From positions 80,221-144,220 of the forward strand of contig JAQGDQ010000553.1 in the NCBI GenBank assembly GCA_030141605.1: DNA of 64,000 bases, written 5' to 3'. Both the position numbers and the translations under genes were made by a program. Under the pieces are notes generated by a model. The model did not search any database and had not been told where the DNA came from. It saw only the letters and a program-made list of their open reading frames with translations. Position 1 is the first letter of the stretch. The number at the start of each line of letters is the position of its first letter. This document shows positions 7,101 to 52,313 of this stretch, in pieces. This stretch comes from Tubiluchus corallicola (Eukaryota > Priapulida > Priapulimorpha > Priapulimorphida > Tubiluchidae).

Positions 7101-10100
7101 GAAGAGGAAGAAGAGAGCGAAGCAGAAGAGATGGTATCGGAAGCCGTAGAAAAGGAAGATGAGACCGAAGAGGGGGAGATTAAAGACAGTGAAGAGGAGC
7201 CAACTAAAGTCTGCACGGTGGCAATTGAAAAGCTAGATTCTGGAAAGACAGCTGAGGAACCGGAATCATTTGTGCCGGAACTTAAAGAAAAGGAAAAATT
7301 GCCGGAACGAAAGAATGCTTCTGAAACCGAGTCTGCCGAAGAAGGAATGGAAACAGAGATTGTGGGAGGAAAAGTGTAAGTAGCACAGATTAAATGCTGC
7401 ACATCCACAGTAAGAAATCAAAGGGAGACAAACAATGGGCAGCTTATTGTACAAACAAAAACTGCATTATTAGCCAAACACAGCCCTTGGGCAACACACT
7501 GTTGAAGTACTGATTGTTGTGTAGGCTAGCACTGTTTGTGCACACGTTTGGTATTTAAATCTGTACTAAGATGTACTAATGTGGCTTTGACAAATCTGGA
7601 CTTGTAATTTTACATACTTCTTTACATGCGAATCATTTTTTGCCCTTCTTGAAAATGCCTGTCTTGGTCTTATGGCCTGTCCACACATCGTTTTAACTCG
7701 ATGTTTCTGTGGCTTATATGAATCAACACTAGTGTGTACAGACAAGTGTCCCGACGACATGAAAAGTCAATCGTGAAAACACAATCATGTCAAAATTTAA
7801 AGTTTTGCGATCACAACACGAAATAATGACAGTGTAAAGCGTCGTATTAAATTAAGTTGTTTGCACATTTTTTATGAAATCCTTTTTGAGTGAAAACTGA
7901 AACTACTACTACAGCATATCTTTTGTGGAAAAAATTTGGTGATTTATTAGTTTTACATTGAATAAATATTAGTTTCTAATGTTTATGTTTACTTTATTTG
8001 GATTAATATGCTCTTTTCCGTGCATTTATAATTGCAAGTTTTGAAAGGTGAAAGGTAGTGTGACTTATTCTTAATATTTAAAAATTTTAGACTTATATAA
8101 AGGTAAACACAGTCTAGTCAATGAAAAAGCTTGTTCAGATTCAGATTAAGCTTGTATTCACTCTAAAATTGTGGGATTCATTTTAGTATTTCAAAGTATC
8201 AAAAAAATTGTTTTTGAATATATTATTCAAAATCATTTCTCACAATTTTTGATGTATAAATGGATAATCTACTCATTTCATTCAGTTGAAGGTGGTCTAT
8301 CATCGTAGAAACGATTTTATTGTGGCACCGATATTCGAACTTATTGTTATACGTCTTAGATGTGTTGATTTTTTTCTTATATATTTTTTGTTTTCCTTTC
8401 CTTAGTTTTAAGAAGGAAGCAAAATCAGAGCAGAAGCAACGTGAAGAAAGGTATGCTCGCATTGTGATTAATAACCATTATGTCACATTTTCAAACATTT
8501 ATTTTGCTTTTCCCCCACACCTGTAGATAATATAGATAACAATACATATTTACACATATCTAGATTGTAATATACAGGGCTTCAAAATGTAATGAAGTTT
8601 GTCTTACCTGTGCAGGAAAGTAAAGAAAGACTAAACGAAGCTTTTTTTATAACTATTGTAACTATTATCTCAACAAGCCTTCTGACAGTTAAGGTTGGTG
8701 GCTAAGGTTTAGGGTTTACGTTTACGTTTTGTGACAGAATTGCTAAATTCCACATTGGTACTACAGTACCTATAAAGAATTTATTGATTACTAGAAATGA
8801 AAATATTTTGAAGAAAAATGGTCCAGCTAACAGTGTGATACTATTTTCAGTTCGTTGGTGACTGCTGGTAATGTTAGTGATGTGCAAAAGAAGACTGAAG
8901 AATCTACGGGCATTCTGGAAAGAATTTCAAATCTTTTGGAGGAGCCTGATGTTTCTGCTAAACCAGCTGAACATGAGAGAAAGGCTGAGATAATTTCTGA
9001 TGATCGATTAGATTCACAGCCGTATTCGCCTATGTTCGATCACTGCTACAGTCGCCCCACGGACGATGCTTCCGCCAAACCTCTGTCGAGCATCGAAAAC
9101 ACCTCTCTGCTTGATCACGACTACCAGAAGGTTGACACTGTGGGTTCTGTGATTGATTCGGTGGTGGAAGTGGCCAAACAAAAGCCCGCTGTGAAGCCTA
9201 AGAGAGTGGTGAAACCTCGAAAGCCGAAACAGGTTGTGTCCGTCAGTCGCTTGAAACCAGCTGCTATGTCAAGGTTGGGAAAGAGATTTCCTCCACGTGA
9301 TCAGTTCGGTGAATGGAAAAACCTGTACGAAATCTTCAATCGGGGTTTGGACGTGGAAGACATGCTGTATATGAAGCACAGTTTTGATGCCATGGTTCAA
9401 AATGAAAACTTCAGCGATTGGTTGAGTTACACTGTTTGGGTGCCTCATCCTCAGACTAATATACCTGCTCCACCATTGCCGAAAAGACGACGGAAAGATG
9501 ATACAATACGGCCGCATCTTACTGGGTGTTCGAGAACCGAGGGTTATTACAAATTAACAATGCAAGAAAAGGCTCTCTATTTGCATCAAGCTCGTCAAGC
9601 AATGCTAGCTGAATTGTACAGTGTGGGCGATGACTCGAAGGTTTGATTTAGTAGTAATATTTAGCAACTTGAAAATTGACAATAGTGGTTAACATATTTG
9701 ACTTTGCCGTAGCAATTATTAGTTTTGTACTGGGCTTATTCGGCTACGCACTTTCCAGTCACCTAGCTTAAAATTGTAAAAAAAAATTTAACCTTATGCC
9801 GAATTGATTGCATTGATATAAAGTTCATTGATCTATTGTGCATAGAAGTGTAATTTTATGGTTATTATTGTCAATGAGTAAGATATTGAGAGAGGAATGA
9901 ATTCTCTGTTTTTTCTTTTCTTATATCAAGCTACCAATCCTTACTTCCTTCTCTCATTCACTACTAGACACTGCCTCACAAACATTTGCTTCTGACGAGA
10001 ATTTTATTTTGTTATTGAAAGATATAATTTGTATTAGCTTTCTTGTTGACAGCAGCAATGCCACGGTTAAAAAAATCAATATTTTTTGTTTACAGGATCG

Positions 10101-12465
10101 AGAGGCACTCGCTAAAAAGAAGGCAAAACTATCTAGAGAAGCAAGATCTGACCAACGACGTCTGCTCACTTCATTTGGTGATACAGTTGATTCGGATCTT
10201 CTCAAGTTTAATCAGCTTAAGGTAGAGCCCTGTTTACCATCACTTGTTTTGAATATTTTTATTACAGGCACTTAAAAACATTTATAGTTAAAACACTACA
10301 ACTTTATTAAAACTTAATTTACATAGTCAAAAATCATGTCAAACATTTCGACAGAGCTACTGCTGTCATCATCAGTGGTAAATTTTACAAACATACAACT
10401 AGCTTATATAGGCAGAGCCTATAGTATAGAAGATTATGCACTAATGTTAAATAAATAATTACATGAGAAATACATGCATACTTTTGACATGCTTTTTAAC
10501 TATGTAAATTAAAAGTTTTAATAAAGTTGTGGTGTTTTAACTGTAAATGTTTTGTTTTTAATGTGTTGTGGCTAGTAAGGCTGGGATGTTACAGTATGCA
10601 ATGCATGACTACCTGCTGTTCGGAAAAATTTGCTGTTATTGAACTTGTTAGATGCCGTGGTTACATTGCTGTTGTAGCTCAGATTACTGTGAATGCAAGA
10701 ATTAATAGTTTTAACTTCTGCATTCACCAATTTTTATTTGTCACATAAGCCAGTATTAAAGAAAAGGACAAGTCACTTTAGCATCTTAAGTTTATTTTAG
10801 TGATTTTACTAATTGTAAGAGGTGCTTATAACACCTTTATTTCTAAATCCTTCAAGCATTTTTCACAAACATTGAAATAAGCCTAACTTCCCAGATAGCT
10901 TGGCCTTTCCTTCAAGTTACCTGTATGAAATCTCTGTACCTGAATAATTATAGACATAATGTGTGGATTGTGTGATAGATACTTGGGCAATCACCGTTCA
11001 CTTGCACTCGTCTGTTTTTTCTAGTTTAGCTTAAGGTGACAGGTTAGCGTTATTTAAAGCTATTGGTCAATGGCTATTGACACCCATTTTTGTATTTAAG
11101 AGCAACAAATTTATTAACTAGGTAATGCATTTGTCATCCACATCCATTACAGGTTGTTGTCAACTTACAACATGGATTGCTTACGACTAGCAGCTTAGTG
11201 AATATACAGGGTAATTCACATCCAAATCACCTTGCGGCTGATTTGTCGGAATCAAATGTAACCACAAGTCCACAACTGCTATTTTTTAAAAATTATTCAC
11301 TAACTATACTTGCATGTTGTCCTGCATCATGGTGTGCTGTACAATTTCAAATCTTCTTTGAAATCCTAATCTTTCTTTATAATATTCAGTTCCGAAAGAA
11401 ACATCTGCAGTTTGCGAGAAGTATGATTCACGACTGGGGACTGTTTGCCAAAGAACCCATCTCGGCAGATGAAATGGTGATCGAATACGTCGGAGCAGTG
11501 GTTAGGCAGACTGTAGCTGATGAGCGTGAGAGGAAATATGAGGAAGAGGGAATCGGGAGTAGTTATCTCTTCCGGATTGACCATGATACTGTGATTGATG
11601 CAACAAAGACTGGTAACTTGGCACGTTTCATCAACCACAGTTGCAATGTAAGTGTTAGCTCGTTCTCCTGTGTTATTAGTAAGGTTTTCACGGGCACGGT
11701 TAAATTCTGTAGTCTATTTTGCTTTTCTTTGCTGGGTTGTATAGTTTTATGATACTTGTACTGGAAAATAAATGACTTCCTGTTCTTCTAAGATTAATTC
11801 AATGAGATGGCAGGGCTCTTTAGCTAAGAAAATGAAATGGCAAAGAGAAGGCTTTACAAAGAATTATCACTATCTGCGTCCAAGCCCGAAGGGTCCACAT
11901 CATACATCGCTTAGGTGCTTAGTGGCCTCAGTCTTGCATTCGAATCCCATGGTCTCTAATACGGAAATTCTTGATTACTTCTGACCTTGTCTTACTTGTG
12001 TAAAGTCTTAATAATTTCCAAAAGAAATGAATGGCAGTATGAACACTAGCTCTCAGGCTGCCAGATGTATGTCATCATCTAGCTGTATTCCCAGTGGAAA
12101 CCGTACTGGAATAAATGGAATTGAATCATGGAATAAGGATGTAAACTTGTGCGAATAGTATAAACGTGTCGTTTATGTTGTTAATACTTGTATTTATCAT
12201 TTTCAATATTATGGATGTGATTACCATTATGCTAGATAAAATAGAACACAAAAGATTGCAAATGTCTTTTCAAATCTGATTATTTTTGCAGCCAAATTGC
12301 TATGCAAAAGTGATAAACGTTGAAGGACAGAAGAAAATTGTCATCTACTCCAAGCAGCCAATCAGCATTAACGAAGAGATCACATATGATTACAAGTTCC
12401 CAATTGAAGAGAACAAAATTCCTTGTCTCTGTGGGGCTACAACTTGTCGGGGAGCTCTAAACTAA
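1..12465 (+). CDS. SETD1: SETD1/SET1 histone H3K4 methyltransferase, 3' part (11 exons)
   Basis: Catalytic subunit of the SET1/COMPASS complex, which methylates histone H3 lysine 4 at promoters in the nucleus. Coding exons: 1-1146, 2488-2649, 3378-3596, 4358-4448, 5689-5832, 7042-7375, 8406-8450, 8851-9640, 10096-10221, 11390-11647, 12292-12465. Joined they give 1162 residues with no internal stop and matching phases. In order (numbering from the window edge) the protein has a Pro/Ser/Met-rich disordered part (1-382), a conserved SETD1 block with [12 protein letters not shown], a Lys/Asp/Glu/Ser acidic region (510-700), a WDR5-binding WIN-like motif GCSRTEG (939-945), the N-SET region, the SET domain (about 1020-1143) with NHSCNPNC and ITYDYKF, and a post-[16 protein letters not shown]. 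Closest to vertebrate SETD1A/B. The RRM and the start lie left of the window. Introns 2650-3377, 5833-7041, 7376-8405, 8451-8850 and 9641-10095 are AT-rich with nothing I can name. A 3'UTR intron (donor near 12481, acceptor before 12960) is possible. Confidence 0.95.
1752..1940 (+). repeat. Two adjacent tRNA-like (SINE-type) units
   Basis: Near 1752-1820 an A-box-like segment (TTCAGATAGTAGAGC) is followed by a B-box-like GCGTTCAAGTCC. Near 1850-1930 a second pair appears (TAGGCTAATTGGTAAAAGC and GGTTAAAATCC). Neither folds into an intact tRNA by eye, so they are probably old tRNA-derived SINE heads in a SETD1 intron. Confidence 0.4.
2073..2174. repeat. Near-perfect 102-bp palindrome
   Basis: About 50-base arms meet with almost no loop, with only two mismatches seen. 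The left arm starts ATAACTTTCTAAGAC and the right arm ends GTCTTAGAAAGTTAT. It lies in the SETD1 intron 1147-2487 and is flanked by AT-rich DNA. It could be a tiny foldback MITE or a cruciform-forming site. Confidence 0.85.
2488..2649 (+). CDS. SETD1: SETD1 exon, [10 protein letters not shown] block
   Basis: Acceptor TTCGCAG, donor GTAAGA, 54 codons, phase 0 to 0. It encodes [15 protein letters not shown] and [14 protein letters not shown]. This matches the conserved helical block of SETD1A/B that precedes the acidic region. Confidence 0.9.
3378..3596 (+). CDS. SETD1: SETD1 exon, [14 protein letters not shown] block
   Basis: Acceptor GTTATAG, donor GTATCA, 73 codons, phase 0 to 0. The end of the exon ([14 protein letters not shown]) matches the SETD1 segment that in vertebrates reads LRGALRLPSFK before a basic run. 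The next exon supplies that run ([13 protein letters not shown]). Confidence 0.88.
3912..4150. repeat. Diverged dispersed repeat, copy 1
   Basis: Shares an ordered series of similar blocks with 40600-40870. One pair is CTGGAAAGTCACTGTGGCTT here and CATGGAAATTCACTGTACCT there. Another is ACATCTACGAGACATGTTGG here and ACATCTGCAAGATGTCTTGG there. Both are followed by an ACCATGAGT block. No protein family recognised. Confidence 0.4.
4358..4448 (+). CDS. SETD1: SETD1 exon, [13 protein letters not shown]
   Basis: Acceptor TTTGCAG, donor GTAACT, 91 bases, phase 0 to 1. It encodes a short basic/proline run followed by the start of the acidic region ([14 protein letters not shown]). Confidence 0.85.
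4932..5002 (+). repeat. Interstitial telomere-like TTAGGG repeat
   Basis: A run of degenerate TTAGGG/TTAGGA/TTACGG units in the SETD1 intron 4449-5688. The unit is that of animal telomeres, so this is probably an old repair insertion or a short satellite. Confidence 0.8.
5689..5832 (+). CDS. SETD1: SETD1 exon, acidic/basic linker
   Basis: Acceptor GTTGAAG, donor GTGTGT, 144 bases, phase 1 to 1. It encodes [20 protein letters not shown], a nuclear-localisation-like basic patch beside an acidic run. Confidence 0.82.
7042..7375 (+). CDS. SETD1: SETD1 exon, Ser/Glu-rich region
   Basis: Acceptor TTGCTTAG, donor GTAAGT, 334 bases, phase 1 to 2. Almost all Glu, Ser, Lys and Thr ([19 protein letters not shown]), as in the acidic region of vertebrate SETD1A. 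The Ser/Glu pairs are likely CK2-type sites (inference). Confidence 0.85.
8406..8450 (+). CDS. SETD1: SETD1 small exon, 45 bases
   Basis: Acceptor TTCCTTAG, donor GTATGC, phase 2 to 2. It encodes [15 protein letters not shown]. It is 45 bases, a multiple of three, so skipping it would keep the frame. Support is phase compatibility and composition only. Confidence 0.7.
8851..9640 (+). CDS. SETD1: SETD1 exon with WIN-like motif
   Basis: Acceptor TATTTTCAG, donor GTTTGA, 790 bases, phase 2 to 0. It encodes a Lys/Pro-rich linker, a conserved block ([33 protein letters not shown]) and the WIN-like motif GCSRTEGYY at 9524-9550, which in SETD1/MLL proteins inserts its arginine into WDR5. The vertebrate motif is GSARSEG or GCARSEG. 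Confidence 0.92.
10096..10221 (+). CDS. SETD1: SETD1 exon, N-SET end
   Basis: Acceptor TTTACAG, donor GTAGAG, 42 codons, phase 0. It encodes [15 protein letters not shown] and [10 protein letters not shown], the hallmark sequence just before the SET domain of SETD1. Confidence 0.95.
10279..10549. mobile_element. Foldback element, copy A, in SETD1 intron
   Basis: Terminal inverted repeats of about 50 bases (left begins CATTTATAGTTAAAACAC, right ends GTGTTTTAACTGTAAATG). The centre has TATAGGCAGAGCCTATAGTA. The same ends and centre recur in copy B at 14905-15194. No coding capacity. Holds a hammerhead-like core on the minus strand. Confidence 0.8.
10342..10375 (-). ncRNA. Hammerhead-ribozyme-like core
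   Basis: On the minus strand CTGATGA is followed by a possible GACAG/CTGTC stem and then GAAA, the conserved core order of hammerhead ribozymes (CUGAUGA, stem II, GAAA). One extra base sits between CTGATGA and the stem. A pairing stem I was not found, so activity is doubtful. Confidence 0.35.
11390..11647 (+). CDS. SETD1: SETD1 exon, SET domain N-half
   Basis: Acceptor ATATTCAG, donor GTAAGT, 86 codons, phase 0. It encodes SET-N and [43 protein letters not shown] and [11 protein letters not shown]. The donor splits the NHSC-N/PNC cofactor-binding motif. Confidence 0.96.
11885..12135 (+). repeat. SINE-like unit in SETD1 intron
   Basis: A B-box-like TGCATTCGAATCCC at about 11936 follows a weak A-box-like GCTTAGTGGCC. 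The 3' end has a small hairpin (CCAGTGGAAACCGTACTGG) followed by GAATAAATGGAATTG, a tail typical of tRNA-derived SINEs. Only one copy is seen in the window. Confidence 0.4.
12292..12465 (+). CDS. SETD1: SETD1 last coding exon, SET-C and post-SET
   Basis: Acceptor TTTTTGCAG, ends in TAA. It encodes [20 protein letters not shown], the catalytic Tyr segment EEITYDYKF, and the post-SET zinc-binding cysteines in [13 protein letters not shown]. The protein ends with the usual SET1 C-terminus. Confidence 0.97.
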
Positions 12466-17861: not shown

Positions 17862-20800
17862 TTAACTTTGTGTAACTTGTCGCTTCTTCAGTGGTATCTT
17901 AGGTTTCACTGGTACATCCGGTTTAACAGAAAGTTTTGGCTTTGCAGCGACTTTTGGTTTGTAACCACCTTCAACGGGCACACTGACGGGGTTGGAAGAT
18001 TTTGTTGGCGACCTCACCGCCTTCCCCAAGTCCAAATCTTGACCTGGTTTGACACCGATGTTTGATTTTACCGGTTTGCTCCGGCCTGGCGGCCCTTTAT
18101 TTACCATGCTAACTGGTTTAACCGCAGGTTCGTTTACCAACTGAAGCCGTGGTTTGGCCGTTTTTTTTAAGCCAGCGCCGCTCTCTGTAGTAAGGATGGG
18201 TGCTTTGTTTGCTCTGCCAGCAGGTTTCACAGCATTCTCAGTACTTACAACTTTCGCCTTACCACGGACAATGTTAGAACTTTGGGTTGGAATGATAGTT
18301 TCAGATTTAGAGACCCTAGCTGGTTTCGGTGGCACTTTCTTCCTGCCGTCGCTGCTCGACTTTACTGGAGATGTTGCTTCGGGTGAATGCAATGGTGATA
18401 CAACTTTGCCACTTCTAGAAACATTTCTCGAATTCTTTGTACCAACACCAGGTTTGGAACTAGATACATCTCCTACGGCAACAGCTTCAAGTTGATTTTT
18501 TGTAGTAGTGGTTCTTTCCTCTGCTCTAAGGCCACCCACATTCTTCTGAACTCTTTTGTCTTTGCTACTCGAATCTTCCTTATGAATTGGGACATTTACA
18601 TCGTTTTCCATTTTAAAATGCCCCTTACCAGTTAGCGGTATACAATCACTGGTGAAATCAACACTGCCATCATTAAGACGTCTCTCACTTACCAACTTGT
18701 CAACTGAATCTAGTGCTTCCTCGTGAATTACAAGCTTTTCAGCCAGTTTGTCAAGTTCTTTAAAAACATCCACTTCAGGTTCAGCTTGAATGCCATTCTC
18801 TGCATCCACTTGTGCTTTAACAACCCGATGCGCTTCGCCAGATGTTTCACCCATTGATGTTGATGCCATGTTCAAAGAATATGCAGACACGTAGTTGACG
18901 CACTCGGGCGGTACAACTACATCGACGTTATTGCAGGTAGAATCTGTCTGGCTCACATCATCGAATACAGGTTTGCGAGCAACAGGTGCTACAACTTCGT
19001 CGAGATCGACAAAATCGTCATCAGCAAATGGAACATCACTGTCCACTGGAGAAACTTTAACAGGAGCAGTAGCACTTTTCATCACCTTATAATCTAAACT
19101 AGACACATGCGACGGCAGATTTTCCACACTGGCTAAATTGTCCTCTTTACCAACAGATGACTGCTCTTTCTTACTTGACTCTGGGCTTTTTGTACCTGGA
19201 CTGTATGAGATACTAGTTTTCTTCACACTTATGTCTTCATTACGTCCCTTGACATCAGTCAACGGTTCTGTTTTTACCAATGATATGTCGACTACAAACG
19301 AATCTTCGGTAGAAGAAGCACGCTTTTTAGACTCTTTAGATGTAGACTTTGCTATCATTATTGGATCAGAAGTTATACACGTGACTTCGGTTTGTTCAAC
19401 TTTTGCAGATGGTACACTGTCAACTGGGGAATTACTATGCACACTGTCAGGCATGTTCTTTTCAGGATTAACACAAACAGAATCATTATTCTGATCAGAG
19501 TCATCTATTTTTTCCAAAGAAGCAGCAGGAACAAACCGTATTGAACTCGGTGACGAAGAAGAACTAAATGACGAACTTACCGACGACAACGATGAGCTAT
19601 GTTGAGAATTCAATGACCTCACTGGCGATGCTTCTCTATTAGAAGAAAACTTAGTTGTCCAAACTTTAACACCAGTGTTTGTAGGTTGTGTCAATCCCTG
19701 ACCAGGATTAGATGAATTTATAGAAGCAGGCGAATGAAACGTATCCGGCGATGGATATGACTTGACAGATCTATGAGCGATCTCTGCCCGAGATTCTGTA
19801 TTTTTAGTTGAGGTAGATTGTGGGGTTAGGTCGCTGTGTATTTCAGTATGATTAGCACTGGGCACATCATAGACGTCGTGCTGAGACATATCAGGTGGTC
19901 GTGCTGGCAACAATCCCTCACGCGATATGCGAACATTGGAATGTCTAAGTCTGTACGAGTCGCAAGACCTCACCGGAGACGATTCTTGAAAAGGAGAACT
20001 TGAAGCCCTTCTGAGTGGCACCTCTGTGTTCAAAGGATAATTAGAAGCATTTACTGGTGACAAGACTCGATTTGGAGGCGAAACCGAGGAAATTACAGGT
20101 GAAACGCCTCGACAAATGGGAGAACCAGCAGAATTGGCAGGAGAAGCACCACGATTCAATGGAGATTCTCTAGCCGCATATGGAACCGGGTGAGTTGTTC
20201 TTACAATAGTCATGCCTACGCTTTTAGGATACTCTTCATCTGTGCTGCTACTCCCTTCCCTGTTTCTACGAAAGTCGGGTGAACGTTTTGGCGACACTTC
20301 CCGGAAGGGAGAATTTGAAGCTCTCACGATGGAAATGCCAGAATTTTTAGGACGACTGGCAGATCTATCAGGTGAATGATTCTTCCATGACAATGAGGTT
20401 GGATCAAACATCTTGTCGGAGCTTGAACTAGCTGACGATAGTGGTCGTGCACCTGCAACAATATGTGAATGTGATCCTCTATTACTCTGTGCCTTTCCAG
20501 GTGATTTAGTAGATGATGCAGCAGACACAAAACCAGTTGTTACATTTTCTACGGGTGAAAGAGAGCCAGCTGGAGAAATAGCACGAATAGATGCGACCTT
20601 CGTAGGTTTTACTGGTGATATGACTGTATTGAGTGGGGAATGAGAGCCCATGGAACCTATTGAACTTGTCGACTGATGCAGCAATAAATCTGACGAACTT
20701 CCAGTGACACAATGAACAGGAAGATTGGGTGATATCACAGGTGATGTTGTTTGTGCTGTCGGGGAAGTTGTGAGCCGCCTAGGAAATGTTGCCGGACGAA

Positions 20801-21200
20801 ACTCCGAATCTGGACTCGCCGGATTCGAGCCTGAATCGTCTACACTCATCTTCGCTGATTTTACTGGAGACTCGCCCGAATTTGCCGATGATGTGCTGGG
20901 TGATATTGCGGTCGTCGAGCGAGTCGGTGTAGTCCCAAACTTGGTGAGCTTCACCGGAGATGTTTTGCCTTTCAGCGAAGAGAACATCGAAGGTTTCTGA
21001 GGCTTTTTATTTGGGGATTTGTTCAATTTTAGGGGAGATATTGGTGGCTTGCCACGTGGAGCAGACGTAACCGCATTTGGCGCTGAATCAACAGCAGTGG
21101 TGTAGCTTCCCTTTTCACGTTCTTGCATTAACCGACGCTTGGCTACCTGTAACTGATGCTCTTTTTCCATGTCTCGTTCAGTTATCTTCAGCCTTAAGCT
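17862..21200 (-). CDS. TBC1D10: TBC1D10 last exon, long Ser/Pro-rich tail
   Basis: Acceptor TTTTCACAG on the minus strand, 1112 codons plus TAA. It starts with the family coiled segment ([20 protein letters not shown]). It then repeats SPVK/SPVR-type motifs ([43 protein letters not shown]), followed by an acidic part and a Lys/Pro-rich end. SPxK/R is the consensus of cyclin-dependent kinases, so heavy phospho-regulation is an inference. Confidence 0.93.
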   Translation of the reverse strand, partial: SLRLKITERDMEKEHQLQVAKRRLMQEREKGSYTTAVDSAPNAVTSAPRGKPPISPLKLNKSPNKKPQKPSMFSSLKGKTSPVKLTKFGTTPTRSTTAISPSTSSANSGESPVKSAKMSVDDSGSNPASPDSEFRPATFPRRLTTSPTAQTTSPVISPNLPVHCVTGSSSDLLLHQSTSSIGSMGSHSPLNTVISPVKPTKVASIRAISPAGSLSPVENVTTGFVSAASSTKSPGKAQSNRGSHSHIVAGARPLSSASSSSDKMFDPTSLSWKNHSPDRSASRPKNSGISIVRASNSPFREVSPKRSPDFRRNREGSSSTDEEYPKSVGMTIVRTTHPVPYAARESPLNRGASPANSAGSPICRGVSPVISSVSPPNRVLSPVNASNYPLNTEVPLRRASSSPFQESSPVRSCDSYRLRHSNVRISREGLLPARPPDMSQHDVYDVPSANHTEIHSDLTPQSTSTKNTESRAEIAHRSVKSYPSPDTFHSPASINSSNPGQGLTQPTNTGVKVWTTKFSSNREASPVRSLNSQHSSSLSSVSSSFSSSSSPSSIRFVPAASLEKIDDSDQNNDSVCVNPEKNMPDSVHSNSPVDSVPSAKVEQTEVTCITSDPIMIAKSTSKESKKRASSTEDSFVVDISLVKTEPLTDVKGRNEDISVKKTSISYSPGTKSPESSKKEQSSVGKEDNLASVENLPSHVSSLDYKVMKSATAPVKVSPVDSDVPFADDDFVDLDEVVAPVARKPVFDDVSQTDSTCNNVDVVVPPECVNYVSAYSLNMASTSMGETSGEAHRVVKAQVDAENGIQAEPEVDVFKELDKLAEKLVIHEEALDSVDKLVSERRLNDGSVDFTSDCIPLTGKGHFKMENDVNVPIHKEDSSSKDKRVQKNVGGLRAEERTTTTKNQLEAVAVGDVSSSKPGVGTKNSRNVSRSGKVVSPLHSPEATSPVKSSSDGRKKVPPKPARVSKSETIIPTQSSNIVRGKAKVVSTENAVKPAGRANKAPILTTESGAGLKKTAKPRLQLVNEPAVKPVSMVNKGPPGRSKPVKSNIGVKPGQDLDLGKAVRSPTKSSNPVSVPVEGGYKPKVAAKPKLSVKPDVPVKPKIPLKKRQVTQS

Positions 21201-24200
21201 CTGTGAAAATAACGATAACAAAAGTTACGAAATGCATCAATGAGAACAACATGAAGATTTTGACATTTCCGAGACATCAACATGTATGTTTCAAAATGCG
21301 CATGTTTTCACTAATGTGTTGAAGTATACAACATATCGTGCAAGCTATCCTAAGGTTTAATAACTCAACAAAGACAACAGTTGTTAATAACAACATGGTA
21401 CCTGATTGCTTTTATTTAGGTGTAATGTGGCATTATCACCGGAGCAATTACCGAACTGGTAACTTAATTGCACACCTTCAGATGGGACATAACAAAAATT
21501 TATCAGTATGTCTATGTTTATATGTGTATACAGTCTGTAGGTCTTATTTATTAGAGAACCAATGGAAGATATCTTCAAAAATACAATGCTTCTGGAGCAA
21601 TGATCTAAAAGAAACTGCTCAGCAGGGCCTTCAGTTAATAATGATTTATAACTTATATTGTCATGCAAACAGTGCGACACGAAACTTACCGGGTAATTAA
21701 AAAAATTTATGAGCACTAAAGAAATGAAAAACATCATCCATCGTGCTACAAATTAAAAAGTAAATTGACTTATCAAGCCAAAAAACTAATATCATTTAGA
21801 AAATGACACAACCATAGATATTATACAGTAGGCTTTGCTTAATAAATGCATTCTGGGATGGAAGTGTTTTGACCCGAATAAATCGACAGGATCTATTAGC
21901 CAACGGGTGTAGTATATTACTACTATATGAGTCATCACTCATCAATTTTAAAAAACAAATTAATGTCAGAATTCCTATGTGCAATTATTTAAGGATACTA
22001 AATTATATAAGTGAATTGAAAAAACGGATACACAAATGTGATTATTACCATTACAAATTACAAACATTCGCACAAAGTCGGGTGCTTCATCTCTTCAAGA
22101 AGAGGTTGGTTCATGAAAATGTTGAAAATCTGTTGCTACATGCTGCACATATTCACTAGTGCTTGAGCTGCAGTTGGTGATGACCGTGTTTCCGCTGTGA
22201 AAAGCAGTGGGAGCTTCAAAAGCAAATCGCTGGGCAAGTGATCAAATGTTTAGCTTCCAGAAACAACAAGGTTAACTGCAGCAGACAATCTCCGGATGAG
22301 CGAGCATTTCAAAGCGAAACTGCTAAGCCAGCAAATTAGCGCATATTGATAAACGTACCTGCTTACAAACAACTTACTTAACACGACTGTTACTAGGTGT
22401 ATTGTAGTGCACAAAAGCTACGTAAAGAGACATAAAAGCAACAGAAGCTCTTTGGTCGAACACAAGTGTCTTATTTTAAGTACGTGAAGGGAAAATATTG
22501 AGTCAGTTATGCATGGTTATTTGAGTCAACCGCCTAGGTTTTTATACATATTTGAATAGGACATTTTTGAGCCAATTCAGCGATTAATTCTATTAACTGT
22601 AAGTCTAATAAATCGTGCCTACTGTATAAATAAATGATCAAGTTCAGCTTGTAGTTTTACAGTATCATTACCAATTTGCTGTAATTATGCATCTCAATTA
22701 TTTACAAAAAATTTTACCTCGTACACCAGAAAGTCCTCCTGCATTATGTCCAATTCTAAGTTGCGCAACCGCTGTAGCGTTTCATCTATATCCAGACACT
22801 GCCTCAGCTGATCGGGTCGTCCAAGTGTAGATTTTAGCAGCACAAGTCCAACTCGAAACATTACTTTAACACCTGGAAAATATACCAGGCACAAACATGC
22901 GAAACTTGCTGTTATTTAATAAGTTTTTCTGAATGGCAGTCAGAATTAACAAACTCAAAGGGCAAGCAAATTTAACATATTAAAAGAGTGTACAAGTTTG
23001 TGAAGTTGCCACGTAGATTTCGCAATGATTTTAATAATAATAACATAAGTTTTTGTATATTAGGCTGTGTTCATCTAGCGGTAAATTTGATATTTGGAGT
23101 AAATGTAATTCTTTTTATTTTGCTAAAATTAACATGTTTTTCCATCATTGTTATGTTCCATTTTTATCTTACCCCTCACTATAAATTCGTACAAAGGTCA
23201 TATTCACCCAAAATTAAATATCTAGAAAACAACTCAAATAATTTAATCTACAGCCAAGGAAAAAGAGTGAAATTGCACCATATTGAAATACCCGTCGGCT
23301 CTCATCAATCTATCAGCCGACACATGGCAAATTCCTATCCTACTATTAGACTACCGGGCAGTCGCGCTAAAGAGTAACCACAGAATGGAAAACACAGCTT
23401 TGGCAAAAATAGCAATTACACAATGCATAAGGGGTCCTAGGTTGGGTGACCAAGTGGTTTAGATTTCGGACTGCAACCATGCAGTCTTGAGTTCAAGTCT
23501 AGCGGCTGACAGAGTCAGGGCATAGACCTTACATGTTATTCATTGTTTGTGTATTACGTCCTTATCTGTATTGTTGTAAGTGTAAGTCACTAAATAACTG
23601 ATAGTGGATAATGTTGTCTATTAAAGAAATTATATCATATATACAAACAAACAGTATAACTGTGCAATAACACTGACCATTATGTTTCGCAATATTTTTG
23701 TCTTTCGGTTCGCATACATTACGCCACATAAATGAAAGATTGTGCAACCGTCAATATCGCATACAGGCACTCAATACTACTGCGCGAAATTCAGTACCAT
23801 ACAATCAGTTATACTGTGTGTGTATGCTGCTTAGGTTCCAGCTACAAAACTTTTACAATGTGCAATTTGTCCACCATATATAGTGCACTAGTAATGACTG
23901 TCTCCACTATACAAATATGAAAAATCACTTTCTTAATGTAGTACCATTTTTCCCCAGCAGATGTCACACTAGTAGGCACTAAAAATATGTTGGTAAGCAA
24001 GAGTCAGCACACAACAAGAACAGAAACTAATGTTTAATGAAAGTAACAATTCATTAAGCGCACCTTCGCAAAAGAACATGTCCCAAACACGTAACACTGA
24101 TGCCCATGGAAGTGTTCGACTAAATATGCACATGAACCATTCAGTCATGACCAGTATCGGCTCAATTCTCAAATTTTTCTACAAACAAATGTTTGTACAA

Positions 24201-45769: not shown

Positions 45770-45963
45770 ATGGCGCCGATTATGGAAAAACAAGAAAGTG
45801 GAAACGAAGAGGCAAATGGCAAAAAATGTGTAGTACACGGATCAGTATGCAATTCCACAGACGAAGATCACGATTACATTGAAACCGATGCTGTTAACGT
45901 TCTATGTGGTGCACCTTGTCTGTTATTTGCAACAGGAGAACGATGTAAATTTTCATCATGCAG
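45770..45963 (+). CDS. MBD/F-box gene, exon 1
   Basis: 194 bases, donor GTAGTT, phase 2. It encodes an acidic start and VLCGAPCLLFATGERCKFSS followed by C, a cysteine-rich segment that may bind zinc together with the start of exon 2. Confidence 0.85.
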
Positions 45964-48900
45964 GTAGTTTCACATATACGATTGTACTGGATAGTTTAAT
46001 AGCCATTTTCATGAATATGACAGTTGCTATACATATATTTATAGTATTTTAATTCTAGACTGTAAACAACAATTTTATTACTACATGTAAGAAGTATAGT
46101 TGATTTTGCTAATACATTTTACTAGTTCTATTAGTTAATATGTGATTGTATGCTAATTGTTATTTTTTTACATTTTTGCCTTTCAGCCACCATGTCACTA
46201 ATTAAATATCGTAAATAGTTGTTAACTAAATAAAGGTGGCTTGACTTGATAAGCGTGTGGTTTTTCACCTCCCTGTTTCTGTACAGGTTCTTTGAAATAT
46301 TGTTTGCATATATTCCCTTTTTTATGTGCAAGAGAAAAATAAATTATTTGAATTTGGGTAGAGCATCAGCTATTTGACAGACGATTTCAGAAATCCAATG
46401 AGATCATTCTTTTTCTGACTGGCCAGGAATACCATCAACTATTCATATAAAACTAATGACGTACCAAAGTTATACGCGAGTAACCACACCAAACGAGTAG
46501 ATTTACCATTCGGTAGACTGAAGGATACTATAGAATTGCAAATGCGAAGTTGCTTATTTAGAAAAGTCGCTTAGCTGATTAAGTGTAGGATTGTGCTTGG
46601 TTCGTTCACACTGCCAAGAAACCATCAGCGAACTGCCAGTGCTGAAAAAATGGCATCTCTTTCAGAAGACAAGCTGCAGAGATTATTTTACTGTCATGTC
46701 TCTTATCTTCTTTGTATTTCATGTTTGATTTACCAGCCTACAATGTTACAGCTCTTACTTAATTAAATGTTGCTATATATTGCTGGTATACTTCTTTTGA
46801 GCTCGGCTACTGTTTATTTAAATCTATAGCGTTGACATAACAAAATAATACTGAACAATTAAATATTGGTTTATTGTAGTGTTAGTACTGGTGCTAAGTA
46901 CAAGTGAAAAAACAGGTGCATAGTTATGAGCGAGGAAGCATATGCAGCCTCAAATAACTATATGGCAAAGTAAGTTAATCTGCCATGATGTCATTATTTT
47001 TCTCTTGATAATCTGTAACTAAATAGCAACGCTATTAATAGGCATTAGTAGCTTTGTTTGTTACAGCTTAATCTTTATTCTAATTTGACCCAAATGAATT
47101 TAAGCTGCATTCCAAATACAATCCAAAAAATTTCTGAATCTAATTTGAATATTGTATCATGTATGTAATGCAGGCATATGCTCTTGGTTATCGCTAATAC
47201 TGACCATTATACCAAAAAGTACCTTATGCGTTATCACGAAATTTTCCTGTTTGAAACTTGAGAAACTTGATTAATGTAACTCTATGGACATAAATGATAT
47301 ATAGCATATACATGCAGATGTTGTGATCATGTTCATACGCTGTGTGTATAATACAGTAACGCAACTTGTAATTTATTTATTATTCTTTTCAGCATTACAT
47401 AATTTTACAATTGATGTTGTTGTTCTAGAACTAATATTTGCTATAATTAGAAATAAACTTGCAAATATAGTTACAGTAATTGAAATAGACCTACATAAAT
47501 GCCACATGGTGGTTAAGCAGCAAAGCTTGTGAAATCGCCATGAGAAGCGGAAAAAACTTGGTAACTTATCAAAGATAAAATTTGTAGAAAAAATAAAATA
47601 GAGAACAACAAAGAAAGAGTAATAGAGAAAAGACAGAGAAACAGAGGGAGAGAAGCGAAATAGAAAGGACTTCAGCAAAGATGTGATGCAAAAGTATGGA
47701 AATGTGGACAGCAAAGCGACAAGTCTAGTTAGTACAGCAACAGCTCCCCCGAACACATTTGTTCAAAATTGGCACCTTTTCAATAATTTACACACTGCTG
47801 CATTTTGTTTTCATTTTTTGTTTAAAATTAAAATAATTACATAACCTGCTTTTATTATATAACTTTTTATTGTGTTTTAATTTTAAATGCAAAATAACAA
47901 TTATGTTCTTCCTTTAAAATGATATCTTCACCGTGTTTTGATTTGAACAGAAAATTAAAATGCATAATCAATGCATTAAACATTGTTTGATATGTGTCAC
48001 ACTGCCTTTTTTATGTGTTTGCTCCTCCTAACTTTAGAATCTGGCCACTTCCCTGAAGCAGTCACGGGATGCACTATAACTATACGCAGTTCACAGTCAA
48101 ACCTAAAAATGCATTTCTTTTATAAATAGGATTTTAATAGAAGAGATTTCATACTTCTTTTAAAGTCATCTAATGTTCGATGTCTTGTAACATATACTGA
48201 CATTTTATCCCATCTATTTGAAACTGTAAATCTTAGAAAGTGCTTGAGGTTTTGCAAAATGGTTTTTAACTTCCAAAGATTGGCACTCGTTACATTTACT
48301 CCTTGTATTTTTCTTAAAAATACTAAATTTTTTGCAGCACACCTTTTTGTTTAATCTTACTTTTTTGGCTTGGCATTTTACAAACACAGTTGTTGTTTAG
48401 TTAGTTAAGAGTATATTTGTTAGCAATTTTAAATTAAAAATATAATCTCAATTCACTTTCCTTTTATTTCAGATACCGAGACAGAGCTTTACCACACTAT
48501 CACTGTATGGATTGTGACTCACCATTCTTCTTCAAGGAAGACCTTTTGGAGCACTATGTCAGCTGTGAGGAAAAGACTAGTCATGCAAACTCTGCAAAAT
48601 TTACAAATGATAATATTCCAGAACAAGGAACAGAGACTAGAAAACCATGTCAAAGCAATGCAGAAGATGCTAAATCGAGTAAGAAAACCAGAAAAACCAC
48701 TGATAGTCATTTGAAATTAAATGCAGAGAAAACTGGACGAGAGAAGCGTTCTAAGGCAGCATTTATCCCACCAAAACAAAGCAGTTTTGGTAGGCTGCGT
48801 AAGCCCAGTGCTAAAGTGGCATCCTATCAGCCTGACATGACAGCGAATAATACTGAAAGTGGCACTGCAGCACGTGCTGGGAATAAAAGAGCTGCAGCTG

Positions 48901-51900
48901 AAGCCAGCGAATCAGACATTAAGAAGCAAAAATGTTTAAAGACTGAGACTAAAACATCCCCTAAAAAAAGTTCGCAATCAACATGGCTAAGTACACAGAA
49001 AAAGAAAGAACTTTTAAAGCCTTTACTAGCAGGTTGGCAAAGGGAAGTAGTTTTCAGAAGAGATGACAAAGACTACAAGACAAAAAAGGCAGATGTTTAT
49101 TATACCAGTCCGTCCGGTTCACGGTTTCGATCTGGTGCCAAGGTGCTTCAATACCTAGCGTCACACGACACAGATTTTACAATTGAAAACTTTTGTTTCA
49201 ATAGTGTTGTCATCGGTGCTCCAAATGAAACTAGTAGACATACTTATGAACTGCAAAAAAGACCGCATAAAGTTCTAAAGGTGCAGGGTAACACTGGGGG
49301 TGTAATTGAAGCAGACAGTAAGTGCTTCAAGCCAGAGGTCGGCGAAGTCCCCACTGCTGCTGGAGATGAGTTTATGGCAAAACTGGAATTAAAAGCTGCC
49401 ATAAAAGCGGCAAGTAAATCGAGTAGCAACGGCAATGACTCGCAGCCAGTTGGTGCTGTTGATTCATTCTCATTGGATAAATCAGTAAAGCAAAGTACTG
49501 CATCAACAGACGATAGTAAAGTGGTGCTCCAAAAATCTAGCAAACCACATATAATTTCAAAGGCCAAAAATCCAAAACAGAAAAGTGGATTCCTGCGGCC
49601 AAAGTTGTTAATTAGAGATAAAGCACATTATGAAGCAGTTAAAGCTTCACACGTGTCAACCAAAACTGTTAAGAAGAGTAAAAGTAAATCTCAAAATAAA
49701 GAAGTATCATTTTGCGAGTCAGGTAAAGCTTCACGGCGTTCGCAAAAAAGAACAGATGCTAGCAGCTCACACGGCTTCAGTAGCCAGCATGAAAGTGGTC
49801 TTGTGTTTACCTACCCGAAAGAAGTATTATGCTCACTCAGCTGTCCTGGACAGGAGGGTGTGGCTCCCACACTCCAGTGTGTCGTCTGCCTGTGCCTATT
49901 TCATCCCCAATGTGTGAACTTTCAAGGGATGTGTGCAACTACATTCATGTGCATGAAATGTGTCGGAGAGGTTGCTAAAGGAAGTGTTCTCTCATCTGAA
50001 ATGGAATCACGAATCAGTGTTAGTAATGCCACTTCATCTTTTGGTCATGTTTTTTCTCCTGGCTACCAGCAGGTACTCCCTCCACCGCCGCCACTGAAGC
50101 TTGCTCCGCATTTAGCTTCTAAACACAGAACAATGTCTCAAGGTACTTACTCAGCACATGAGCAGCACGTTGTTCAACCACAGTCCGGATTTTTTATGGA
50201 AAATCAGTCTATACCATATTCACATGGCTTTCAGACTGCAAATTACAGTTTTTCTTCAACATTTAATTTACCGTCGAAAAATTTGGAAGGTAATAAAAAA
50301 GTGCTTGTGGTGGACCAGCATGGCCATTCACTAGGTCACACGATAACAACGGCAGACGGAAGGCTGTTAATACCCACAAAAAAGGGAATGAAGCCACTTC
50401 ATGTTCATAGAATACATAGTGTCACTAGTACATCAGAAAAAGTATATTCGTCAACGGCTCCTGTCAAAATTGCTAAGCAAAAGAAGGAAGGTATTAATCC
50501 CGGTGAATGCTTGTTTCAAAGATTTCATGCTGGCTTTGCTGCTTTACCATTAATATTCAGCTATCTCCCTTATTCAGATTTGGTAAATGCCAGCAGAGTT
50601 TGCCGATTATGGAAATCGGTGATAGATAATCCTTCTGTTTGGAAAACGGGAGTATTTCGCGACTGCGGGTTTGACAACTGGGATCTTGCAGCTCGAAATT
50701 TCATTACATATGGGACACAAAAGTTGGATATGCGAGGACTGAAACTAGACTATAAAAGTGTAAATGAAACATGTACATATTGGGAAACCTTCTTGGACAC
50801 TCTGAGTTCCATGCATTCTTTAGAGTACTTGCATTTTGGCCAAGTGCCTGGTTACGTGATAGAGAAGCTATGCGATGTGAAAGAACTAGCTGCACATCTT
50901 CAAGTCTTAATCGCAGAGTGGATTCAAGATTCTTCTATTAATGAATCTATTTGGAAACGACCGGCCGTTTTTGATATCGGAAAACTTGGAAATCTGACCG
51001 AGTTACGAGAGTTGAAACTACGAGCTGTAGTGGGCATCGTGCTTCCAGATGCCCCTGAAAGTGGTGGGTTTAAAAGACTTTCTGGTTTAAAAAAGTTGCA
51101 AATGCTTTCCATCTCAACGCTTCAGAACATTCCAGAATCTGAATTGGCTTACTTAGCTGACTTGGCACAAGTGAAATCTCTTGAAATCGGAGACTGCCGA
51201 GGGTGGCATAAACAGGCGTATGAATACCTTGGAAAGATGCAGAGTCTCCGCCATCTAAAATTGGAAAAGGGAGGAGGAATACCTGATCCCGGACTGGCTG
51301 ATGCTTTGTCCAATATGTCTTTGCTGGAGCATTTGGAATTGGTTATGTTCACAGTTTCTGATACGCTTGCAGGAGCACTGCACCATCTCAGCCGTTTGCG
51401 GGCACTGACAATATGGCCTGCTGCTGACCAGCTTGAGGTAGTCAATACAAACGTTTTCAATATTGTGTCTTGTTTACCCAAACTTGGAAGGCTAGACTGG
51501 GGTATTTTATCTACTGATAGCAGTCCATGTCAAGTGGATGTTGAAGCAAAGGACAGCACACATGAAGTGGACGGTGAGGCAGAAAAACCCACCAAAACCG
51601 AGGACAGTTCTGTTTCAGGTTTTACTAAAGTGGACAAAATTAGTGATAAGACTTTAAATGGAAACAATGTGAACAAGGATAGCCAGGAAGTCACATTGGG
51701 AAAATCTAGTAATGCCAATGATGGTAATCTACAGAAATCAAGTATTTCTGATGATATTATGGTAGATGGTGTATCTGTTCTTGAACTTGATACAAATGAC
51801 CAAAGCCAACCTAATAATAAAGTGAAAGTTGAGAATGATGGTAAAGAAATCAATGATCTTTCTAAGGATATAGTTGGCACTGATAATATGTGCAATAATG

Positions 51901-52313
51901 TTGCAGACAATACGAATGAATTTGTTGATCAGAAGACACAGAAAGAAACTGTAGCTTCTTTCCAAATTGCTGAAAACCACCTCCAAGACATAACAAACAT
52001 AAACAGTTCCACTCTAACTAAACTCAGAAGCACTCCAAATAAGCGAAAGGCTAAACTTGAAGTGCTACTGGATGAAGAAGAGCAGTTACAGCAACGAATC
52101 ACGGCTGGAGAATTCATCCCCTTTCTTCCAGGCTCACTCTACGTAGATGGAATGAAGGAAGTAACCAAGCGTAGTCTTGAACAAACCAAGTATATGACCA
52201 TAAATCAATTAATGGACAGCCTGTGCATCATTCTGCCTGATACAAAAATACGCATTATACAGGTTCCTAAACTTGATAGCGTTCCACCATCATTGAGTGA
52301 ACGAGTAGATTAA
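45770..52313 (+). CDS. MBD / PHD-like / F-box / LRR protein (2 exons), unnamed family
   Basis: Exons 45770-45963 and 48473-52313 join in phase to 1344 residues. An in-frame TAA at 45752-45754 fixes the start region. Order: a Cys-rich start (CKFSSC) with a C2H2-like finger across the junction (YHCMDCDSPFFFKEDLLEHY then VSC); a basic linker; an MBD-type domain (about 245-315) with GWQREVVFRR, ADVYYTSPSGSRFRS and ENFCFN; a PHD-like finger (about 518-562) with spacing Cx3C, CxxC, x4H, xxC, CxxC; a PPPPP linker; an F-box (about 752-795, LIFSYLPYSDLVNASRVCRL, W); leucine-rich repeats (about 826-1078); an acidic linker; a conserved-looking end (GEFIPFLPGSLYVDGMKEV). F-box proteins recruit substrates to SCF ubiquitin ligases and MBDs bind methylated CpG, so a chromatin-bound ubiquitin ligase subunit is the inference. 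KDM2/FBXL19 have CXXC-PHD-F-box-LRR, a similar plan with a different DNA reader. No JmjC domain is present. Confidence 0.9.
45964..48472. other. Intron of the MBD/F-box gene
   Basis: 2.5 kb, AT-rich. Contains a mostly purine stretch at about 47575-47660. No exon-like block keeps the phase better than direct joining of the two exons, and I see no named repeat. Confidence 0.6.
48473..52313 (+). CDS. MBD/F-box gene, exon 2 (3.8 kb)
   Basis: Acceptor TTTATTTCAG. A single open exon of 1279 codons after the split codon, holding the MBD, PHD-like, F-box and LRR parts, ending in TAA at 52311-52313. In the MBD, the residues equivalent to MeCP2 Arg111, Asp121, Tyr123 and Arg133 all look present (second R of REVVFR, D and first Y of DVYY, R of FRS). 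Confidence 0.95.

Follow-up and report, generated by a model that had tools for sequence, protein, structure and literature searches.

A Tubiluchus corallicola protein combining an MBD, a PHD-like finger, an F-box and leucine-rich repeats: a candidate F-box protein directed to methylated DNA

In the priapulid Tubiluchus corallicola, an MBD, a PHD-like Cys/His finger, an F-box and leucine-rich repeats (LRRs) are encoded in one chain. Two genes of this family were found in the genome: an intron-poor one in the window, the whole 64-kb stretch of DNA that was analysed, and a second on contig C418. Domains, domain order, the second gene, residue conservation and the frame logic of two alternative MBD exons were read directly. 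The architecture resembles that of the KDM2/FBXL19 proteins. No MBD/F-box family was named among the matches listed in the literature searched; unnamed orthologs may well exist in public databases.

Structure and domains of the window gene

The window gene is encoded on the forward strand by two coding exons, whose joined frame gives 1344 amino acids with one terminal stop. Coding exon 1 (45770..45963) begins with an ATG, keeps an open frame up to a GT donor and encodes residues 1-64 and part of residue 65, including the start of a Cys/His-rich N-terminal segment. Intron 1 (45964..48472) is of the GT-AG type and was placed from the sequence and the joined frame, and coding exon 2 (48473..52313, stop codon included) has a frame open for 1291 codons. 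The initial annotation had described one open exon; all named domains are indeed within exon 2, but the protein is built from two exons. The 45963/48473 junction is predicted from the splice consensus, from the open frame and from the way in which a Cys/His cluster continues across it, the second half of the Cys/His-rich segment lying at 48473..48566. This segment was recognised in the sequence without a Pfam match; none was found in the N-terminal 108 residues, and a genome search with the N-terminus returned nothing convincing elsewhere (best other match E 1.01). A chance origin of the gene is excluded because of the Pfam scores and the 1291-codon open frame.

The MBD (48996..49208) matches Pfam PF01429 at E 1.8e-15, with 56.7 bits against a cut-off of 21, and a genome-wide profile match covers the same bases. 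An alignment of the window MBD with the exon A and exon B versions of the C418 gene showed R14, D26, Y28 and R38 (alignment positions) to be invariant in all three; these two Arg, Asp and Tyr residues we take to be methyl-CpG contacts as in MeCP2 and MBD2. The earlier statement that the DNA-contact residues are in place is thereby upheld. Furthermore, the MBD family profile matched the structures of MBD4 (E 1.7e-8), BAZ2B (2.3e-8) and MBD2 (6.1e-8). A single-sequence structure model of the domain was poor (mean pLDDT 53), and among the structural matches of this weak model the first 27 of 50 rows were MBD or TAM domains, with Z up to 3.8. Genome-wide, the Pfam MBD search found at least four places, namely the window gene, SETDB1 and two exons that, by eye, we presume to be BAZ2-like and MBD2/3-like. 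The MBD search counts are lower bounds, since the MBD of the C418 gene is split over exons and was missed.

In the PHD-like Cys/His finger (49818..49970) the paired Cys and His residues follow one another in the proper order, and 26 of 53 residues are shared with the counterpart in the C418 gene. Against PF00628 the finger scored E 0.91 in the window gene and E 0.02 unspliced or 0.18 joined in the C418 gene, all under the 24-bit cut-off, and the best match in the PDB was E 0.12, obtained with a pair alignment whose second row is without one Ala of the C418 model and whose numbers are slightly off for that reason. The finger named in the initial annotation is retained in its Cys/His order and its conservation, but the Pfam cut-off is missed in both genes; as a PHD finger it is only suggestive, and the name PHD-like fits it best. 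Downstream, inside a diverged linker, comparison with the C418 gene revealed a proline motif common to both genes, LPPPPPLK(L/V) (50076..50102), which may bind a proline-recognising domain.

The F-box (50544..50651) is above the cut-offs of both Pfam models, with E 2.6e-11 and 43.5 bits for F-box-like (cut-off 24.3) and E 3.3e-9 and 36.7 bits for F-box (cut-off 20.5). It is followed by the LRRs (50796..51521), for which LRR_14 gave E 6.8e-9 at 35.4 bits, below its cut-off of 40, as LRR_14 also is in the C418 gene. A two-sequence F-box/LRR profile found FBXL3 (E 3.6e-5), SKP2 (E 6.6e-5) and KDM2B (E 5.9e-3), the last in the PRC1.1 core structure 5jh5 over profile positions 23-282. Like that of the MBD, the F-box/LRR model is a weak single-sequence prediction: ten-residue pLDDT means of 57-88 were reached only over model residues 221-350 and were below 50 before them, the F-box part included, so that the model gives no test of the F-box fold. 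The repeat fold as modelled aligns with many LRR proteins, among them FBXL17 (Z 15.8, rmsd 3.1, 169 aligned), FBXL2 (Z 15.4, rmsd 5.7, 188 aligned), ribonuclease inhibitor (Z 15.2, rmsd 5.3, 201 aligned), a second FBXL17 entry (Z 15.0) and KDM2B (Z 12.2, rmsd 4.3, 201 aligned). Because the top four tie within 1 Z, the comparison supports an LRR fold but points to no particular relative. The F-box and LRRs of the initial annotation stand, the repeats with a bit score under the threshold.

Behind the repeats a long polar/acidic insert (51522..52073) is largely missing in the C418 gene, with 43 of its 185 residues aligned and 6 identical. The C-terminal segment (52074..52310) closes with a conserved end, QLM..LC..LP.TKIR...VP, with 14 of 29 aligned residues identical; in the C418 gene this end comes soon after the LRRs. 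Apart from MBD, F-box and LRR, Pfam gave the exon-2 protein no match that exceeded a cut-off, and NCBIfam gave a single weak match in the LRR region, far below its cut-off.

Several other features of the window were recorded. N-SET and SET open frames at 8831-11752 on the forward strand mark a SET1/COMPASS-type histone methyltransferase gene about 34 kb upstream of the gene described here, and a Ser/Pro/Lys-rich frame of 1120 codons lies at 17862-21224 on the reverse strand, with no Pfam match to E 0.1. Neither Rfam, applied to the 64-kb window with its gathering thresholds, nor a scan for tRNAs found anything there; in the genome, let-7 scored above its cut-off and a full-length bantam match below its cut-off, and the distribution of these microRNAs suggests a protostome. 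A COX1 search aimed at the mitochondrion gave no match.

A second gene and its two MBD exons

When the genome (343.5 Mb, 2344 contigs) was searched with the exon-2 protein, eight places had E up to 0.01: the window gene, six pieces on C418 and, on C769, a single FBXL-like locus. From 30 kb of C418 a gene model of 16 coding exons was built, all bounded by GT-AG introns, with a joined frame open to one terminal stop and a protein of 1078 residues with MBD exon A or 1088 with exon B. On its own, this joined protein matches MBD (E 5.1e-10, 39.3 bits), F-box-like (2.2e-10) and LRR_14 (1.1e-7, below cut-off). No convincing counterpart of the window N-terminus was found for it in the 30 kb (best E 0.49) or in the genome.

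The two genes have the same domain order despite different exon structures. Identity between them is 38% in the MBD (33/88), 49% in the PHD-like finger (26/53), 40% in the F-box region (30/75), 43% in the LRRs (114/263) and, over the 29 residues aligned at the C-terminus, 48%, compared with 23% and 26% in the linkers and 6/43 in the polar insert. The kept order, together with domains at 38-49% versus linkers at 23-26%, points to selection on the combination. A one-off fusion was considered and rejected, since the same domain order recurs on C418 in a different exon structure, and judged from the two sequences a fusion artefact is very unlikely as the source of the combination. The second gene likewise bears out the original reading of an MBD, a PHD-like finger, an F-box and LRRs in one protein.

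In the C418 gene two exons in tandem and of equal phase, A (92 nt, at L014:6267-6358) and B (122 nt, at L014:6512-6633), each encode the core of the MBD, which starts at GW and stops just short of the second Arg; the following 28-nt exon supplies that Arg. Spliced singly, each version matches Pfam MBD (E 2.2e-9 for A and 7.3e-9 for B), and in a motif scan of 20 kb in three forward frames only A and B carried both the GW and the DVYY parts. Both exon lengths are 2 modulo 3. In the joined model the frame is intact with A alone or with B alone, while inclusion of both leads to a stop at codon 109 and of neither to a stop at codon 96. Because either exon alone keeps the frame and both or neither breaks it, A and B apparently are mutually exclusive in splicing; actual alternative splicing is what this exon logic would predict. 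The choice of A or B would change the loop from the first Arg to the DVYY motif and might in this way tune DNA reading.

Relation to known CpG readers and F-box proteins

The closest working analogues are KDM2A, KDM2B and FBXL19, whose order we take to be CXXC-PHD-F-box-LRR. The window protein resembles them in carrying a putative CpG-directed reader, a PHD-like finger, an F-box and LRRs in one chain, and would work like them if its MBD binds DNA. Unlike in these proteins, an MBD is found in place of CXXC, its end lies about 200 residues ahead of the finger, and there is no JmjC match. As the MBD stands where a CXXC would be, the opposite CpG preference is expected. No Pfam match to zf-CXXC was found to E 10 in the exon-2 frame, nor any in the N-terminal 108 residues, and JmjC, a domain of KDM2A/B only, had no match in either. 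In the genome, zf-CXXC was found at three places, none of them on the window contig; a CXXC on C1154, read as a 97-residue frame only, has KDM2B (2.8e-22) and FBXL19 (7.5e-22) as its best matches. Membership in the KDM2/FBXL19 family was rejected, there being neither a CXXC nor a JmjC match in the window protein. The protein is not a KDM2 or FBXL19 under another name, because the CXXC of that type sits at a separate locus, which also sustains the contrast with CXXC-type F-box proteins drawn at the outset.

With MBD4/MeCP2 and MBD1/2/3 the protein has in common an MBD with the same contact residues, and we know of none among those proteins with an F-box or LRRs. With the FBXL class (FBXL3, SKP2, FBXL17) it shares an F-box followed by LRRs; to our knowledge, these three are without a DNA reader. 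UHRF1 joins a methyl-DNA reader and ubiquitin machinery in one chain by means of SRA and RING; the window protein differs in using an MBD and an F-box, and SRA genes are present here at other loci. Animal Mbd proteins have been grouped as Mbd1/2/3 and Mbd4 in a paper in whose text the term 'f-box' occurs 0 times (PMC8330077). In the literature searched, as represented by titles and the starts of abstracts, no family combining MBD and F-box was named among the matches listed.

Methylation setting, proposed function and rival readings

Components on which such a function would draw were found in the genome: DNMT1, SRA-domain genes matching at two loci and SKP1-family matches at two loci. The window as a whole has a CpG observed/expected ratio of 0.71 and exon 2 one of 0.54, and TG/CA are in excess. 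Across window segments the ratio ranges from 0.53 to 1.1, the last 8 kb scoring 1.1 and 0.96, and it is 1.03 at another animal locus (L016). Such regional depletion of CpG agrees with the expectation for mosaic methylation but does not prove it. Contigs that appear phage- or bacteria-like by eye have ratios of 1.0-1.36, and those in the assembly that carry cytosine methylases (L017, L020; C1479, C2335) show no CpG depletion. Intron-poor frames were also seen for DNMT1 (1449 codons), SETDB1 (1028 codons) and an SRA domain (702 codons) on contigs C2195 (L018), C877 (L002) and C1866 (L025); on C1359 another SRA locus is divided among exons. The window gene fits this pattern of an intron-poor copy plus a multi-exon copy.

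DNA binding, SKP1 binding and ligase output of the window protein are predictions from its domains. In the proposed mechanism, the MBD would anchor the protein at methylated CpG, SKP1 would be bound by the F-box and a chromatin partner presented by the LRRs; the PHD-like finger may provide a further contact, to a histone or another protein. An SCF complex (SKP1-CUL1-RBX1) would in this manner be assembled at methylated CpG and ubiquitylate a chromatin protein. We give about an even chance to this reading, an F-box/LRR protein tethered to methylated DNA whose output is an SCF ligase, and favour it over pure recruitment.

Pure recruitment, in which F-box and SKP1 dock a chromatin complex at methylated CpG without degradation and without ligase activity, is a serious though less probable reading. 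The KDM2B F-box/LRR structure (5jh5, E 0.0059) is among the profile matches, but it is outscored by FBXL3 and SKP2, which we take to be SCF receptors. According to one study, FBXL19 requires its F-box to recruit CDK-Mediator and binds SKP1, CUL1 and RBX1/2 were undetected in its purifications, and there was no evidence for degradation of CDK-Mediator; its authors state that KDM2B likewise recruits PRC1 (PMC5997449). The term 'ubiquitin ligase' is weakened because this analogue recruits without detected CUL1 or RBX (PMC5997449). The analogy with the recruiters is one of function, not of demonstrated descent.

It is unlikely that the MBD has lost methylation reading and serves a protein or RNA contact. 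Precedents are reported in two papers: methylated DNA is not bound by MBD5 and MBD6 (PMC2917364), and the TAM domain of BAZ2A binds noncoding RNA (PMC4446428). Consistent with such a role, the loop that leads from the first Arg to DVYY differs in length among the MBD versions, and BAZ2B is among the profile matches (E 2.3e-8). Nevertheless, all three versions retain both Arg residues, the Asp and the Tyr, and the top matches are MBD2 in one search and MBD4 in the profile search; in the MBD of this genome's SETDB1, by contrast, the DVYY motif is missing. That the window copy is a functionless retrocopy, with the C418 gene alone at work, is highly improbable: exon 2 lacks all 15 introns that separate the 16 exons of the C418 model, but 1344 codons are open, domain identity exceeds linker identity, the gene has its own 5' exon, no poly-A tract was seen by eye in 787 bases past the stop, and the copy is diverged yet intact.

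Returning to the favoured SCF reading, it is tentatively proposed, at well below even confidence, that these genes represent an unnamed animal family of methyl-CpG-reading SCF receptors in which one gene would switch its DNA reader by mutually exclusive MBD exons, splicing thereby deciding which methylated sites get ubiquitin. The known CpG-reading F-box proteins act on unmethylated CpG, and a methyl-CpG reader in such a chain would link DNA methylation directly to SKP1-based complexes. With the exon pair A/B, if so used, splicing would exchange one DNA reader for another. In conclusion, the role of methylation in invertebrates is poorly understood, and the window gene is a target whose removal would probe one output of invertebrate methylation.
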